A stretch of 64,000 nt of DNA from Thermovorax subterraneus (GCA_021608145.1 JAKIHM010000012.1:1-64000); one strand, 5' to 3'; positions 54,452 through 64,000 are shown, counted from the first letter of the stretch. Program-made: numbers and translations. Notes: a model not told the origin generated them from the letters alone.

Positions 54452-54500
54452 AAAAAGCGCGAGTTTCGCCTCAATTTCCAGGCGTTCTCGCGGCTTTCTT
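54451..54500. terminator. Bidirectional terminator between convergent genes
   Basis: A long GC-rich imperfect stem (GCGCGAG...CTCGCGGC with inner CGCC/GGCG) is flanked by AAAAAA on the left and CTTTCTTATT on the right, so it could end transcripts from both sides. Confidence 0.7.
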
Positions 54501-57500
54501 ATTCTAAAACATATTTGCTTTTCAGGCGCTGTCTTACTTTTTCCGGTATGAGGTCGCCCACTTTACCTTTTGCTACACATACGCTGGTGTCGGCAGCCCC
54601 GTAGTACACCAGGACCTCGTCTTCTTCGCCCAAGATTTCCTTTTCTTCAGCAGGTACCGCCCCGCACGTGAACACCACATTAGGTACCCAAGACTGGCCT
54701 TTTTCTCCGACTTCGTATTTGGTTTCCGGCGAAAGAATCGGGTTTGGCGAACGATACAGCACTCTTCCCGGATCATCCAGGTCAACCAGTACGACTCCTA
54801 GCCTGTATACCATTTCGTGGTCGACTCCGTGGTATATTAAAAGCCATCCGAACTTTGTTTTTAAAGGCTGCGCCCCTGCTCCTATTTTCAGGGAGTCCCA
54901 CATCATTCCGGCGCGCGGCCCCATTATTATTTTATGGCCTTCATGGGGCCAGGGGAACGCCAATTTGTCTGAATACGCGACCCAGATGCTGGGTTCTATC
55001 CTGTGGTATATTACGTAATTTCCTTTGATTTTTTCCGGGAACAGTATGGCATCTTTATCCCACACCCCGGGAAATGCCAATCCTCTCCTTTTCCACCGGT
55101 CGAAATTGCGGTTCAAAAAATCTTCCACTGAAATCGACGCGGCGGCTATTTGCGCAACAACCCCGTCGTAAGCCGTATAAAGCATTACTATCTCGTCGTC
55201 TATAACGACCACACGAGGGTCTTCGCAGCCCTTTAGTTCCTCCCTGGTTTCCGGAACGAAAATAGGGTGTTTTAACCTTTCCAGGACGTTATACCCGTCA
55301 GTTACGGCGAGGCCTATTCTAGACACTTCGTCCTGACCAAAAGCTCTGTAAAGCAGATAAACCTTATCCTTTATCCTCAGGCTTGCAGCATTAAGCACGT
55401 ATCTATTTTCCCACCAGTGTTCCTTTATAGGATTTAAAATCGGATTTTTTTCGTACCGTTCGAGCATACCTGCCGGCGGCCAATCTTCCAGTTCCTGTAC
55501 TACCACCTCTTCTTTAGGCGGCTTAATCCCCAAAAGCATGTCCAGCAGGTCCTGGTATTCCCTTCCAAGGCTTATCAGCTGGAAAACCTGATTCATTATC
55601 TCTTCGGGGTCATATCCCAACTCTCTGTATATTTCTTCCAGCAAGTCATGGTTGAACCAATCTCTCTCCACGTGCAGCGAAAGCGGAGTCGGCACCCCCT
55701 CTCCGCCTTTGAAGCTGAAGCTGGCCCATGTCCACGCAGAACACGGCAGGAAAGTCCCGTCCTCCAGGGTGAGCCCTAAACCGTAACCTTCGGCCATCTT
55801 TAAAAGGTACTCTGCTTCCCTTTTCTTTCCTTCTCCTTCAAGGTTTCTTGCAAATTCTTTAAGCCTTGCTACAAATTCCCTCTGATGCCAGTTTTCAAAG
55901 ACGCGGTGAGCTGAAAAAATTTCCCTGCCGTAATGCTTTGTTATTGAATTTACGAACTTTTGACCAACTTCTCTACGCTCTTTAGTGTAAATTTCCCATA
56001 TCTTGGAATAATGTTCGGCTTCGATTATGCTCTTTGCTATCCTCGTAAAATAGCGGAGTTTGGGGTACCTGCCACCCATCCCCTTGCCCAGATTTACTAC
56101 GGCTATCCTTGCCGTCAACCTGCTGTAGCGCGAAATATCTGCCCAGTCGTTCAAAACCGGAATCCTTTCCCTGCTGAGCACCAGTGGAAGCAATTCAACT
56201 TCTTCGAAGCTGTCAGGTCTCAGATTGTCCTGAAGCCACTCGTAAATATGAGCAAAGTATTCGGGCCGCTCGGTAAACTGGGCTAAAGTCAATATATCCC
56301 TTACGTCTACGTTGTCCATCAGCTCGCGCATGTTGCGGAAGTTAAGCCTTACCAATAAATTCCTCGGAGGGAATTCATAAAGGAGTTTCCTTAGCACATC
56401 CCACTTGACGCCGAGCACCTTTTTGTGGGGGAAGACCTCGAAAATTTTCTGACATACTTGTAATATACCTTCTTCAGTAGAGAGGTCTCCCGGGAAAATG
56501 CGGTCAACTACCCTTTCAAGTTCGCCCAGGAAATTTTCGAAGCGTCCGATTATTACTTTTGAGGTTTTCTCGGTTATTTCAAGGATATTCCTTATGTAAT
56601 CTTCAAAAGCTCTGCTATATTTTCGCTGCAGCCTTTTGAATATTTCGTTGGGATATATTTCCTTCCCAAGATAACCTTTTAATTTTTTTGGAAGCACAAT
56701 AGGGACTCCCGGCACGAATTCCAGATAGTCAAGAGGTGTAATCAATGGCTTTACTCCAGCGCGCCTTTTTTCAAACAGGAGTTTAAAGTTCCGTCTTTCA
56801 CTTAAAAAAGCTTTTTCCTGGGATTCTGCCAGGCTCTTCACTTTTGAGTTGATTATATCTCTTTCATCCGCTCCTATTTTTTTCAAAACCGAATCCAGTT
56901 TCAGAATTTCATTCGCGTATCCCGCTACCATGCCGTCGTAAACGCCGGCAAATGCATCTATGATGTCTTCCTTTAATACTTCCCCATTCGTTGAAAAAGC
57001 AGTTAGAAGTTCAAGGGCGACTTTCGCCCAAATTTCAACCGGGAACCTAAAGTCGCTCTTTTCTGAAGATGCGATTTTCTTTAAAGCTTCGCTCGTGTCC
57101 TTCTCTAATAGGGCCTCAAAGAGGCGCTCGTTGCGCTTAAAATTCTTCTTGAAAGATTCAACATATGTATCTACGTTTAGCTCCTCAAAAAGTGCATCCC
57201 CTTTTACTTCATGCACTGCATAAAAAACATCCGGTTTTTTCACTACAAATTCATCCTGCCAAATTTCTTCGTCGCGCAATATACATTCGAAAACCGTCCT
57301 CGACACCGCTTTGAAAACTATGTTGCGCTTTTGGTAAAGCGAGGGCGGGGATATTTTTCGGTCCAATTTTACTTCACATATTTTTCTCCCCCACCTTATA
57401 GCTGTCATAATAAGCCATGGAGTTATTCCATAGCCTCCTAAGTGCTCAGAACACTGGTCGAATTCTTTACATAGGTCCTCTACCAGGTCATGGGAAAATG

Positions 57501-58056
57501 CATATACTCCGCTCAAAGGGTCGGATACGCTTATCCCGTAAAATGCCGTAAGAAGCGGGGACACAAAAAGCTTGCCCGTAGTTTCTTCAAAGGGACTTCT
57601 CACGAAGCTTGCAATGGCCATATCGTATCCGCCGGAAACGGGATTGTATAATCCCTCTATGCATTGTGGGGTAATTCCCTTTTCTTGTCCACTTTCCAGG
57701 TCGGCCTCAAGCAGGATTACGTCTGACTCCAGCATTCGAGCCACTTCAAATATAGCCCTCGTGCTAAAACCTTTGCCTTTCGCTTCATCCGGCATTGAAA
57801 AGCAAAGGACCTCACCTTCTTCGCACGTTGCAATATTTTCCACAATTTCCCTTCCTGCAGGGTCTCCTGCACATACAATGAGCTTCTTATACCCGCCGGC
57901 AACCAGACTATTTCTTGCCGTTTCCAAAAGCCTCTTCAGTGTCTCCTCCTCGTTAAAAAAGGGTATACCAATTACCACATCTATTCTTTCATCCTTTAGG
58001 TTTTCTATAAGTTTCCTTACCTCTCTTGTGGCATCCTTAAGAAGCATCGATTCCAC
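54499..58056 (-). CDS. Glycosyltransferase-GH130 phosphorylase fusion protein
   Basis: 1185 residues, cytoplasmic, no signal peptide. Residues 1 to about 270 are a GT-A glycosyltransferase (VVIGIPFFNEEETLKRLL, LLEADLESG as DXD-like motif) close to the glucosyl- or mannosyl-glycerate synthase group. Residues about 290-860 are helical without a family I recognise. Residues about 865-1185 are a GH130 beta-mannoside phosphorylase-type five-bladed propeller (YEKNPILNP, catalytic Asp about 944 in GCEDPRVVV, GSPGLEYHG-like IYHGVDHE). It could make and phosphorolytically recover a mannose- or glucose-based compound. GTG start after AGGAGGTAAAAAT. Third gene of a three-gene operon. Confidence 0.82.
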   Translation of the reverse strand: MESMLLKDATREVRKLIENLKDERIDVVIGIPFFNEEETLKRLLETARNSLVAGGYKKLIVCAGDPAGREIVENIATCEEGEVLCFSMPDEAKGKGFSTRAIFEVARMLESDVILLEADLESGQEKGITPQCIEGLYNPVSGGYDMAIASFVRSPFEETTGKLFVSPLLTAFYGISVSDPLSGVYAFSHDLVEDLCKEFDQCSEHLGGYGITPWLIMTAIRWGRKICEVKLDRKISPPSLYQKRNIVFKAVSRTVFECILRDEEIWQDEFVVKKPDVFYAVHEVKGDALFEELNVDTYVESFKKNFKRNERLFEALLEKDTSEALKKIASSEKSDFRFPVEIWAKVALELLTAFSTNGEVLKEDIIDAFAGVYDGMVAGYANEILKLDSVLKKIGADERDIINSKVKSLAESQEKAFLSERRNFKLLFEKRRAGVKPLITPLDYLEFVPGVPIVLPKKLKGYLGKEIYPNEIFKRLQRKYSRAFEDYIRNILEITEKTSKVIIGRFENFLGELERVVDRIFPGDLSTEEGILQVCQKIFEVFPHKKVLGVKWDVLRKLLYEFPPRNLLVRLNFRNMRELMDNVDVRDILTLAQFTERPEYFAHIYEWLQDNLRPDSFEEVELLPLVLSRERIPVLNDWADISRYSRLTARIAVVNLGKGMGGRYPKLRYFTRIAKSIIEAEHYSKIWEIYTKERREVGQKFVNSITKHYGREIFSAHRVFENWHQREFVARLKEFARNLEGEGKKREAEYLLKMAEGYGLGLTLEDGTFLPCSAWTWASFSFKGGEGVPTPLSLHVERDWFNHDLLEEIYRELGYDPEEIMNQVFQLISLGREYQDLLDMLLGIKPPKEEVVVQELEDWPPAGMLERYEKNPILNPIKEHWWENRYVLNAASLRIKDKVYLLYRAFGQDEVSRIGLAVTDGYNVLERLKHPIFVPETREELKGCEDPRVVVIDDEIVMLYTAYDGVVAQIAAASISVEDFLNRNFDRWKRRGLAFPGVWDKDAILFPEKIKGNYVIYHRIEPSIWVAYSDKLAFPWPHEGHKIIMGPRAGMMWDSLKIGAGAQPLKTKFGWLLIYHGVDHEMVYRLGVVLVDLDDPGRVLYRSPNPILSPETKYEVGEKGQSWVPNVVFTCGAVPAEEKEILGEEDEVLVYYGAADTSVCVAKGKVGDLIPEKVRQRLKSKYVLE

Positions 58057-58067
58057 ATTTTTACCTC

Positions 58068-59093
58068 CTATACCGCCGGCACAAATGCCCTTTCACCATT
58101 ATTCTCTATTTGTTCTAATATCTGGTGAGCCAGGAGGAAAGTGACTATGGCTTCTGCCCCCTGGTTCTGGTTTACGCCATCGGGTGTCAGGGCATCATGG
58201 CAACCTTCGGTTTCCTTGTTTATGAGGGGAATTTCATTAATATTTTCACCCCAGTACCAGTTATAAGCCGTCTTTGCCTTCAGAAAATACTCCCTTTCTC
58301 CCGTCGCAATGAATGCCTGCAGGCACGCCAATATTACTGACGCAGCATCGACTGGTTGCTGGTCATAAAGCGGCATTGCGTTTTCCTTTTCCCACCATCC
58401 TCTATTGCCCACTATATTCAGATAGCCTTTTTTAAAGAGGGCATCAGTTAAAAATCCAAGGGTGTTCTTGGCCACTTCCAATACCTTCCTATCGCCACTC
58501 ATGGTATAGTAAGAAAATAATGAATGCGGCAGCAGGGCATTACAATACGTCAGTTTATCTTCGAACCAACACCATTTTCCAGCCGTATTTTCTTCATATA
58601 ATTTTACAAGCTTGTAGGCCATCTTTTTTGCAGCAGGATATAGTTCTTTATATACATTGAAATTGTTTATAAGATTGACTATGCCCAGGAGAACGTAAGC
58701 TACGGCTCTAGGGGCTTCCAAATTTAGGGCTTTTTCTAAACTTTTTTTGACCATTTTCAAGCTTATTTCTTTCACTTGACTCATATCGCTCGATGCAGAA
58801 AAGCTTGCAGCCATAAAAGCGCGTCCAATGCAGTCTTCTGAATTAAGTACTGGCACAAATCGGTCTTCCAGTTTCAGGTTGTTCCACAAGCCGTTTTCCT
58901 CCTGAGCTTGTTCCAGGAAGCTAATATATATCCGTGCAAGCTTCTCTCGCATATCGTCTTTCATGTCCACAGTCACAAGCAGTGCTCTCGCGTTGTCGTC
59001 CACCGTATAACCGCTGGATTTCTGTGGTGTAGATTTTTCGGCAAACTGGATTATTCCCGTGGAGTCGGTCATATTCATGAGGTGCTTATACAT
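58068..59093 (-). CDS. (alpha/alpha)6-barrel-like protein linked to a glycosyltransferase operon
   Basis: 341 residues with repeated paired helices typical of (alpha/alpha)6 toroids (GYTVDDNARALLVTV, EDCIGRAFMAAS, QQPVDAASVILACLQAF). Acidic and aromatic residues line the expected cavity. No named catalytic motif is certain. Proteins of this type are often found beside GT4 and GH130 genes in mannan- or glycoside-related clusters, and may be hydrolases or scaffolds. It overlaps the GT4 stop by 8 bases and lies 11 bases before the fusion gene. Confidence 0.7.
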   Translation of the reverse strand: MYKHLMNMTDSTGIIQFAEKSTPQKSSGYTVDDNARALLVTVDMKDDMREKLARIYISFLEQAQEENGLWNNLKLEDRFVPVLNSEDCIGRAFMAASFSASSDMSQVKEISLKMVKKSLEKALNLEAPRAVAYVLLGIVNLINNFNVYKELYPAAKKMAYKLVKLYEENTAGKWCWFEDKLTYCNALLPHSLFSYYTMSGDRKVLEVAKNTLGFLTDALFKKGYLNIVGNRGWWEKENAMPLYDQQPVDAASVILACLQAFIATGEREYFLKAKTAYNWYWGENINEIPLINKETEGCHDALTPDGVNQNQGAEAIVTFLLAHQILEQIENNGERAFVPAV

Positions 59094-60246
59094 CTTTCAC
59101 CGCCCTCCTAGTGAAGTTGGGCTTTAATATCTCCTCTATGATCTCCACGTAGCTTTTCGCAACTTGGGGCCATGTCATAGTCTTCCCCAGTTTGCCAGCT
59201 TTCCTTTCCAGTTGACTCTTTAAAATAGGGTCTTTTAGTATTCGATCTATTAGGGTAGCTAGTTCTTCTGGATCGGCCTGTGACGCGACAAGCCCTCTTC
59301 CATTTGCCAACATCTCGAGTGAATAGTCATAAGGTGTTGAAACGATCGCCCTCCCGCAACCTATCGCATACGAAAGCGTACCGCTTACTGCCTGATGCCT
59401 GCCGGGATACGGGGTAATGTAGACATCAGTCATATAGAGGTAATCTCCTATCTCTTCAAGGGTTAGGAATTTGTTGATAAAACGAACATTGTCGTGGAGG
59501 TTTAGGTCATCCACCAGCTTTTCTAGAGATTCACGGTAAACCTCGCCTTCTCGCTTTTTTAGTTTGGGATGGGTTTCTCCCACGATAAAATACAATATAT
59601 CCGGATATTTTTCTTTTAATATAGCTATGGCTTTAATCCCTATCTCGATGCCCTTTCCAGGCCCGATAAATCCGAAAGTAGTGACCACAGGCCTGCCTGA
59701 AACGCCGTAGGCTTCTTTCAGCCTTTCTCTTGGCTTTTCCCTGAAAACTGGCACTCCATGCGGTACCACGTAGATCTTATTGAGGGGTATTTTATAAACT
59801 TCGTGCAAAAGTTCTGCAGAGCGCTTAGTCATGCAAATTACTGCCGATGCGCTTTGTCCCAATTTCATAAGTATGCTCTTTTGACTTATCGTCGGCTGGG
59901 AAAGCACCGTATGAGTATTTAAGATGAAAGGCTTTTTCAGGTGAGCCACAAAATCGAGGAGGTAATTTCCGTCACAGCCGCCGAAAATTCCATATTCGTG
60001 TTCCAAAAGCACAAGATCCGTATAACTGGAATTGATGTATTCTGCTGAGGCTGCAAAATCCTCTTTGCACTCCTCATGAAGCTCAAATACCACTTCGGGA
60101 GGGTAAGAATAAGAAGAGCCATTGTCGGTGATGGCGAGTATTTTTACTTCTTGTCCCCACAAGGTAAGGTTGTCCCTCAAGTCTTTAGCAAATGATGCTA
60201 TACCGCATTCTCTAGGTGGATAGGTGGATAATATAGCCAGATTCAT
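59086..60246 (-). CDS. Family 4 glycosyltransferase
   Basis: 386 residues with a GT-B fold. The N-terminal domain (1 to about 165) has NLAILSTYPPRECGIASF and a HEYGIFGG acceptor loop. The C-terminal domain has VTTFGFIGPGKGIEIGIKA, FIVGETHPKLKKREG and the EX7E-like ITPYPGRHQAVSGTLSYAIGCGRA. GT4 enzymes are retaining and use UDP- or GDP-sugars. ATG 60246 follows GGGGGATGTCT. First gene of the operon with the (alpha/alpha)6 protein and the GT-GH130 fusion. Confidence 0.88.
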   Translation of the reverse strand: MNLAILSTYPPRECGIASFAKDLRDNLTLWGQEVKILAITDNGSSYSYPPEVVFELHEECKEDFAASAEYINSSYTDLVLLEHEYGIFGGCDGNYLLDFVAHLKKPFILNTHTVLSQPTISQKSILMKLGQSASAVICMTKRSAELLHEVYKIPLNKIYVVPHGVPVFREKPRERLKEAYGVSGRPVVTTFGFIGPGKGIEIGIKAIAILKEKYPDILYFIVGETHPKLKKREGEVYRESLEKLVDDLNLHDNVRFINKFLTLEEIGDYLYMTDVYITPYPGRHQAVSGTLSYAIGCGRAIVSTPYDYSLEMLANGRGLVASQADPEELATLIDRILKDPILKSQLERKAGKLGKTMTWPQVAKSYVEIIEEILKPNFTRRAVKDV

Positions 60247-60430
60247 AGACATCCCCCATTTCTATATATAATAAAAGGGTCTTTCCCCAATCCAATTCCC
60301 AGAAACACCACATACATTCTTATTATATATTTAAACAAGCTATATTATCCCACTTGCGGCGAATAGCACCATTGCCGGGAAATTTTTAAGAAAGACAGCA
60401 GGTATGTTGAAGGAGGAAAATCTCAAGAAG

Positions 60431-62593: not shown

Positions 62594-63037
62594 TTAAGGC
62601 ATAGGGATATTCGCAAAATATACGAATAGAAACCAAAACGCCGTTCCTGTTATTATTCCAAATATAATAGATGTGACAAATGAACGCTCTCCAAAGACCT
62701 GCATTGTTAATATAAGAAAAATTATAGTGGAAATTAAGTATCCTAAAAAAATTACAGCAAAGCTATATAAGAGTAATAAAATTATTGCTATTACGGCTGG
62801 TGAAAATTTGAGATGCAATCCTATTAATATTGACTCGGAAAATGTATCTTTTTTATAAGTTGCTATCAGATAGCAAGCACTGCTACATAGTAAAATAGCA
62901 CTAAGTATAAACAAATACCAACCTGGACCAAGTATTTCATTTGTAGTTGCTTTAACGAGTCGCAAACTATCGATTAAGCCTATAATTCCTAGCATGATAA
63001 AAATTATTCCTTCATTCTTTATTATGGAGCTGATCAT
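62594..63037 (-). CDS. tctB: Tripartite tricarboxylate transporter TctB subunit
   Basis: 147 residues with four membrane helices (about 10-28, 40-62, 80-112, 122-145), typical of the small TctB subunit. It would work with a large TctA permease and the TctC binding protein to import tricarboxylates or other organic acids by a sodium or proton gradient. It lies 53 bases downstream of tctC. No tctA follows; a terminator and transposon relics do. Confidence 0.85.
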   Translation of the reverse strand: MISSIIKNEGIIFIMLGIIGLIDSLRLVKATTNEILGPGWYLFILSAILLCSSACYLIATYKKDTFSESILIGLHLKFSPAVIAIILLLLYSFAVIFLGYLISTIIFLILTMQVFGERSFVTSIIFGIITGTAFWFLFVYFANIPMP

Positions 63038-63090
63038 TATATTTCATGACTCCTTTAATTTTTTTATGTTATTTTATTTATTTTTTCTAT

Positions 63091-64000
63091 TTATTTTTTC
63101 AATGCTTTTAATTCATCGGCTAGATTTAAAACGTAGTTGCGATAATCCTCGGAATTAGCAAAAGCCGGGACTGCTCCTATTTTAGCTAATTCTTCTACTA
63201 CTTTGGGATCCTTTAAAATTTCTTCGGTTGTTCTTTCCCAAATTTTAACGATATCACCAGATAGCCCTTTAGGTGCTGCAAAACCTACATGACCGCGGAA
63301 AGTAACAGTATTCCATCCTTGTTCCACTGTGGTTGGAACATCGGGAAAACTTTGAAATCTTTCTTTACCCGTAATAGCTATTAGTTTTACTTTGCCTGCA
63401 TTGTATACTGGGCCTACTGAAGTTGAAGATACTACTCCAATATCCACATGTCCTCCGGCTACCGCTGTAGCTAAGTCGCTTCCTCCAGGATATGTTACCA
63501 TTTTTACTTTTGAAGTATCTATTCCTTTAGCTTCTAAAGCAGCCATAAACTGGACGACAGGAGCATCAGCACCTGCGGTACCACCTAACCAGCCCCATTT
63601 TATATTTTCAGGGTTATTTTTGATTGCTTCAGCCACATCGTTTAAAGATTTCCATGCCAAATCAGTTCGAATTATAAACAACCAAGGAAATTCGGCAACT
63701 TTGGCAATGTAAGTTCTTTCCGAGATATCAAAAGGCACATCTGTTCCCCATGCAGCAACAATTGCATTGCTACCATCGGCATCAGCGAGTATAGTATATC
63801 CGTCTGGTTTGCTAGTTAGAGCTTCTAGCGTACCGGGTATACCTTTGCCTCCAGGTTTGTTTATAACATTTATAACTGCTCCCCATTTTTCTGCTAAAGC
63901 TTTTGATGCAACTCTAGCGACTAAATCAGTACTTCCACCTGCTGACCAGGGACATATAACATTTATAGGTTGAGTTGGGTATTTTACTGACTGGTTATTC
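63091..64000 (-). CDS. tctC: Tripartite tricarboxylate transporter substrate-binding protein TctC (cut by window edge)
   Basis: 303 residues visible; the reading frame runs out of the window, so the signal peptide is missing. The visible start NNQSVKYPTQPINVICPWSA and the GGSTDLVARVASKALAEKWG block are typical of Bug/TctC-type periplasmic or lipoprotein binders. The rest covers both lobes (GGTAGADAPVVQFM, VDIGVVSSTSVGPVYNAGKVK, GHVGFAAPKGL). It captures an organic acid at the cell surface for TctAB. The ligand is unknown. Followed by tctB. Confidence 0.9.
   Translation of the reverse strand, partial: NNQSVKYPTQPINVICPWSAGGSTDLVARVASKALAEKWGAVINVINKPGGKGIPGTLEALTSKPDGYTILADADGSNAIVAAWGTDVPFDISERTYIAKVAEFPWLFIIRTDLAWKSLNDVAEAIKNNPENIKWGWLGGTAGADAPVVQFMAALEAKGIDTSKVKMVTYPGGSDLATAVAGGHVDIGVVSSTSVGPVYNAGKVKLIAITGKERFQSFPDVPTTVEQGWNTVTFRGHVGFAAPKGLSGDIVKIWERTTEEILKDPKVVEELAKIGAVPAFANSEDYRNYVLNLADELKALKK

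Follow-up and report, generated by a model that had tools for sequence, protein, structure and literature searches.

The closest described relatives of the system reported here are the GH130 phosphorylases Teth514_1788 and Teth514_1789 (structures 9fj8 and 7fip), which are encoded in a GDP-mannose gene cluster together with a GT4 glycosyltransferase and ManC (PMC4264767). When Chiku et al. (2014) described beta-1,2-mannoside phosphorylases from Thermoanaerobacter, they did not find where the beta-1,2-oligomannan comes from (PMC4264767). In Leishmania, the GT108 enzymes (MTPs) use GDP-mannose for the synthesis of beta-1,2-mannan and phosphate for its breakdown (PMC8950772). The glycosyltransferase (GT) families GT78 and GT81 retain configuration and give alpha products, whereas GH130 enzymes act on beta-mannosides (PMC2581804, PMC4264767). 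Here we describe a gene that combines modules related to these enzymes, located within a 64,000-nucleotide stretch of DNA from Thermovorax subterraneus (GCA_021608145.1 JAKIHM010000012.1:1-64000; hereafter the window). The gene (54499..58056, minus strand) encodes an 1185-residue fusion of a GT78/81-like module, a novel domain and a GH130 domain.

The window protein shares with Teth514_1788 and Teth514_1789 the catalytic propeller (about 39–43% identity in the shared domain), the EDPR general-acid motif, the basic phosphate-site residues and K1001; however, those enzymes are single-domain proteins of about 300 amino acids (aa), to which the window protein adds about 865 residues in two modules. 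With the GT78 mannosylglycerate synthase (MgS; 2bo4/2y4k) and GT81 it has in common the GT-A core, the PLSG motif, the Lys of the GKG motif and the second Asp of the DxD motif, and with MgS also a C-terminal helical domain, yet identity is about 15% and the first DxD Asp, the Asp192/Glu232 equivalent and the metal His are changed. The Leishmania GT108 enzymes are alike in propeller fold class and beta-1,2-mannan chemistry, and possibly in storage logic, but constitute a different single-domain family with no sequence match to the window protein. Lastly, standalone GH130 proteins in GH130-GT4-341aa-ManC-phosphomannomutase operons of related Bacillota (loci L147 and L152) have the same neighbors but, at about 306 aa, are without the GT and novel domains.

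We predict, with a probability of about 0.52, that the fusion is an enlarged cytosolic beta-1,2-mannoside-type GH130 phosphorylase acting in a GDP-mannose/mannoside operon. This operon context would make the missing source of beta-1,2-oligomannan open to testing, and a beta-1,2-mannan chain, if these anaerobes make one, would parallel in bacteria the Leishmania reserve mannogen.

A conserved three-module fusion

The fusion is a single open reading frame (ORF) with a GTG start at 58056, a stop codon at 54499-54501 and zero internal stops. Scanning a single genome for each species yielded 150 matching stretches, of which 80 contigs were kept for comparison of the architecture, and the order GT–middle–GH130 was constant in every complete copy. 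At least 25 other genomes carry it in full length, with 38–100% identity; homologues of this kind were present in 21/21 relatives searched from the same order (as partial copies where assemblies were fragmented) and, in the first sample, in five other families. The closest copies were found in a metagenome-assembled genome (MAG) of the Tepidanaerobacteraceae (99.7%) and in Fervidicola (87%). Hosts are mostly anaerobic Bacillota, plus Dehalococcoidia, and include Fervidicola, Thermosediminibacter, Tepidanaerobacter, Syntrophomonas, Pelotomaculum, Desulfotomaculum and Peptococcaceae as well as MAGs labelled Dehalococcoidia and Deltaproteobacteria. Of 398 genomes sampled from the phylum, 48 were carriers, and these cluster in about 11 families. 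The fusion family is thus widespread rather than an oddity. A chance or mis-called ORF was rejected given the open frame and the full-length conservation across genomes, and a contig artefact or one-off fusion given the identical architecture of all complete copies among the 80 contigs. The fused GH130 domains were monophyletic relative to 11 standalone GH130s with weak support (0.47), and we make no claim of a single origin. No description of the GT–middle–GH130 architecture was found in the literature searched, which did not cover most subscription journals.

An initial annotation of the window, made from the sequence alone, had recognized this protein as a GT–GH130 fusion, suggestive of an intracellular sugar store, with a GT at residues ∼1-270, a GH130 domain at ∼865-1185 and an unrecognized middle of ∼570 residues. 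The fusion itself, in one frame and recurring across genomes, was borne out, as were the N-terminal GT-A fold (by its match to MgS) and the GH130 domain, which is of the beta-1,2-mannoside phosphorylase type. The GT boundary was not: the module reaches about residue 435 with the inclusion of a helical bundle, so that the middle, for which domain search and structure prediction still returned no known family, shrinks to about 430 residues (436-864). An intracellular setting agrees with inspection by eye, in which neither a signal peptide nor a membrane segment was obvious in the fusion protein. GDP-mannose genes lie beside the fusion in many relatives.

GH130 domain

Residues 865-1185 (54502..55464, minus strand) form a five-bladed propeller whose GH130 membership is well supported by sequence, fold and active site. 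PF04041 matched residues 887-1169 with E=3.4e-53 and 181 bits, against a gathering score of 26, and the nearest solved relatives were Teth514_1789 and Teth514_1788, beta-1,2-mannobiose and oligomannan phosphorylases. The full-length protein model had a mean predicted local distance difference test (pLDDT) value of 86.2 and a predicted template modeling (pTM) score of 0.78; its GH130 part aligned to 9fj8 (Teth514_1788) with a template modeling (TM) score of 0.89 (E 6e-26, 39% identity). Residue conservation was counted over 70 fused members, since two of the 72 alignment rows, second ORFs from L072 and L074, were unrelated. In all 70, N889, R904, E945, D946, K1001, H1018, R1019, K1057, H1076 and D1156 are invariant. 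The EDPR motif occupies residues 945-948, in which E945-D946 represent the GH130_NC Glu and catalytic Asp markers (70/70). R1019, K1057 and H1076 are candidate basic phosphate-site residues with identical counterparts in the aligned 7fip and 1vkd sequences, and K1001, which aligns with Lys in 7fip and 9fj8 and with Arg in TM1225, is the probable beta-1,2 Lys (Lys199 of BT3780); the equivalence of these four positions to published residues comes from sequence alignment. Under the criteria that Cuskin et al. (PMC4599007) set out for phosphorylases and for beta-1,2 specificity, such a set of residues is in keeping with phosphorolysis of beta-1,2 linkages. A hydrolase is disfavored because basic phosphate-site residues replace the Glu pair of hydrolases and because the NCBIfam phosphorylase model scored 262 bits versus 86 for the beta-1,2-mannosidase model.

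Standalone GH130 genes were also observed. Those of beta-1,2 type in the genome of the window are located at L025:9248-10156, adjoining an oxidoreductase-like gene, and at L026:9594-10517, adjoining (by eye) a phosphotransferase system (PTS) permease, a regulator and a mannitol-1-phosphate dehydrogenase-like gene. Others lie ∼4.8 kb upstream of the fusion in several relatives (L065, L071, L073, L082, L084, L086, L103 and others), and in these Arg and Asp replace K1001 and H1018, which suggests a different linkage specificity.

N-terminal glycosyltransferase module

The GT-A core (residues 1-265; 57262..58056, minus strand) has a GT78/GT81 fold with an altered donor/metal site, and is followed by a helical bundle (residues 266-435; 56752..57261, minus strand) that completes the GT78-like module. 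The Pfam GT2 match was marginal (E=0.012 with the whole protein as query and 0.0006 with the isolated domain), while profile searches of the module matched GT2 structures, DPMS among them (E about 2e-5), and, when standalone relatives were included in the profile, GpgS (E 2e-6). MgS (GT78; 2y4k/2bo4) was at the top of the fold search, with TM scores of 0.73–0.76 over about 420 columns (E 1e-11), followed by GpgS (GT81) at about 0.6. Standalone homologues of 413-437 aa (L137, L139 and L140) end near the point that matches the end of the bundle, which shows the bundle to be part of the GT module.

The donor site of GpgS contains a conserved network of Lys114, Glu232 and the first DxD Asp; the metal is bound by the second Asp, and the MgS metal ligand His217 has its counterpart in His258 (PMC2581804). 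At these donor/metal positions the window protein has K95, E117 (for Asp), D119, T212 (for Asp/Glu) and Ser in the metal-His column; two of the five GT78/81 features (K95 and D119) are kept and three are changed, so that the Lys-Asp-Glu/Asp network (K95, E117, T212) is incomplete. The DxD motif of the window protein reads E-A-D, and among the fused members the first Asp is present in 0/70, the second in 50/70 and the metal-binding His in 3/70. In the Syntrophomonas clade (within L091-L123) the second Asp is replaced by Asn, His, Lys, Gly or Gln, yet the fusion is kept and the invariant positions of the GH130 and novel domains are unchanged; the Fitch count of three changes includes the two unrelated ORF rows. 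Given the changes of the first DxD Asp, its Asp/Glu partner and the metal His, the canonical transferase site of the window protein is eroded. The assignment of residues 1-435 to GT78/81 is by predicted fold, with two defining features of these families absent. The view that the module is simply dead had to be softened, as 50/70 members retain the second Asp and most of its losses fall within the one clade.

Standalone GT78/81-like transferases with an intact DSD motif and His are encoded at L137:849-2090, L139:2413-3699 and L140:1881-3194. They also retain the Asp after GV and are possibly uncharacterized GpgS/MgS-like synthases; at L139 and L140 the next gene encodes a sugar ATP-binding cassette (ABC) solute-binding protein.

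Middle domain

Residues ∼436-864 (55465..56751, minus strand) constitute a novel, strongly conserved domain with a confidently predicted fold (pLDDT mostly >85; mean 86.3 for a model of residues 258-868). A known family was rejected after Pfam searches of 19 members and sequence/profile searches of the PDB returned no match to the middle region, and a fold search of the model against PDB and viral structures returned none at E≤0.001; the best fold match, 3u24, was not significant (E=0.034, probability 0.21). Conservation climbs toward the C-terminal end of the domain, where residues 751-800 reach the level of the GH130 active-site blocks and residues 766-791 carry the motif DGTFxPCSxW[TS]WASxS[FY]KGGxGxPxP. 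E446, W775, W777, S779, G785, E797 and W800 are invariant in 70/70. Within the 398 phylum genomes every occurrence of the domain was in the fusion (48 genomes), and four weaker matches cover the GT helical bundle only. With ∼430 residues, constant fusion to GH130 and a confidently predicted fold that has no known structural relative, the domain lends itself to enzymological and structural work.

Operon and gene neighborhood

In the window, the fusion is the last of three genes on the minus strand that look like one operon. A GT4 glycosyltransferase gene (59086..60252) comes first and overlaps by 8 bp the gene for a 341-aa partner (58068..59093), which is followed after 11 bp by the fusion; this spacing and overlap, an AGGAGGT Shine-Dalgarno sequence immediately 5′ of the GTG, and an intrinsic terminator-like hairpin with a T-run directly 3′ of the stop codon (54454..54485) are the basis for the single-operon reading. 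The partner has no Pfam model, but a profile match to 7tem (E=1e-7) and weak similarity to GH127 and to GH76 alpha-mannanase indicate that it is probably an (alpha/alpha)-type toroid.

The neighbors of the fusion were tabulated over 95 loci, some of which are overlapping copies from the same genomes. They comprised the partner (342 aa) at 68 loci, GT4 at 52, ManC (mannose-1-phosphate guanylyltransferase) at 37 and phosphomannomutase at 36, and more rarely a second GT4 (19, sometimes as a fusion with a mannose-6-phosphate isomerase cupin), a standalone GH130 (12) and ManA (5). These neighbors point to mannose metabolism. The partner protein (341/342 aa) was found in 43/48 genomes with the fusion versus 48/350 without it. 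In L147 and L152, which have no fusion, the operon consists of GH130 (306 aa), GT4, the 342-aa gene, ManC and phosphomannomutase, and thus the GH130 member of this operon is elsewhere a standalone protein; the operons of L154 and L148 resemble this arrangement.

The partner family as a whole was present in 91/398 phylum genomes, usually beside GT4, and in several genomes it is apparently fused to GT4 in frames of about 760-830 aa.

Function and competing explanations

Judging from the active-site markers and the fold, the C-terminal propeller would interconvert beta-1,2-(oligo)mannoside plus phosphate and alpha-mannose 1-phosphate plus a shortened chain, in either direction. The GT78/GT81-fold module, with its decayed site, most likely binds a glycan, an acceptor or a nucleotide sugar, or is structural, and is most likely no ordinary GDP-mannose transferase. 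For the novel domain the probable role is to shape the GH130 site on its polymer or acceptor side or to handle the chain, but it may itself be an enzyme. Mannose 1-phosphate would probably flow between a beta-mannoside pool and GDP-mannose, since the gene stands in an operon of the GDP-mannose type (GT4, the 341-aa gene and GH130, joined in relatives by ManC and phosphomannomutase). GT4 is, like GT78 and GT81, a retaining family, so beta linkages would have to arise in the GH130 site or through some unrecognized activity.

Several observations weigh against the prediction of an enlarged phosphorylase. The 450-bit cut-off of the NCBIfam beta-1,2-mannobiose phosphorylase equivalog was missed (261.8 bits), and the GH130 domain is for that reason better regarded as a relative in the same subfamily than as the same equivalog. 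Two further GH130 genes, both beta-1,2-type phosphorylases, are already present in the genome of the window, whose ManC and phosphomannomutase genes are on other contigs, outside the fusion operon. Furthermore, D119 is kept in 50 of the 70 members and the GT module never drops out, so some catalytic role for it is possible. The last point bears on the proposal of the initial annotation that synthesis and phosphorolytic recovery are united in one polypeptide. In such a protein the GT module would transfer mannose or glucose, possibly to lay the alpha-linked primer, and would be coupled to a GH130 that elongates or recovers beta-mannose, giving a reversible store; the MgS-like GT-A fold, which is that of a GDP-mannose enzyme, the retention of K95 and D119, and the ManC and phosphomannomutase genes adjoining the fusion in relatives all agree with this. 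We nevertheless consider it unlikely, as E117, T212 and the Ser at the metal-His position depart from GT78/81 and a Syntrophomonas clade has lost D119 while keeping the fusion. A retaining, alpha-making GT and a beta-acting GH130 would also not cycle the same bond, making a make-and-break cycle unlikely, and with so few donor/metal features kept the proposal is only partly supported, and not in its original form. Somewhat less probable still is that residues 436-864 are a synthetic or hydrolytic enzyme of a new glycan-active family working alongside GH130, with the GT module as a relic scaffold. In its favor, conservation of the motif region (766-800), with its invariant residues, matches that of the GH130 active site, and the confident fold has no known relative; however, the domain contains no known catalytic motif, the invariant residues could equally form an interface with GH130, and the domain never occurs without GH130 in the 398 genomes. 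Proof of catalysis by this domain could raise the novelty of the fusion.

The question of storage was approached through the glycogen genes. Glycogen phosphorylase was found in 1/48 carriers versus 116/350 non-carriers (Fisher p 7e-7) and glycogen synthase in 14/48 versus 205/350. The near-absence of the phosphorylase in carriers lends weak support to a storage role, and the reversible sugar store suggested in the initial annotation is compatible with it; yet the contrast is confounded by lineage (about 11 families), and, with the synthase retained by 14 carriers, replacement of glycogen by such a store is suggestive only. These data also bear on a GT108-like scheme, in which the GH130 propeller itself would build beta-1,2-mannan from GDP-mannose and degrade it with phosphate, the N-terminal modules tuning an intracellular energy store akin to mannogen. 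Fold class and linkage are shared with GT108 (PMC8950772), GDP-mannose genes adjoin the fusion in many relatives and glycogen genes are rarer in carriers, but no GT108 chain was among the PDB matches at E≤1, the same confounding applies, and such a polymer is unreported for these bacteria in the literature searched; we regard this scheme as very improbable. A broader proposal, which we put forward tentatively and consider somewhat unlikely, is that syntrophic and thermophilic anaerobes maintain an intracellular beta-1,2-mannan pool, made from GDP-mannose or mannose 1-phosphate and mobilized by the three-module machine, with residues 436-864 founding a new glycan-active or glycan-binding family. 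If true, this would be a self-contained bacterial counterpart of mannogen metabolism.

Other observations

Tripartite tricarboxylate transporter-like genes (TctA/B/C, by eye) adjoin the operon, at 62594-63999 in the window and at L024:9110-10603. A protein family with no Pfam or NCBIfam match is encoded in the same mannose neighborhood at L027:12773-13999 (408 aa) and L157:10751-12016.

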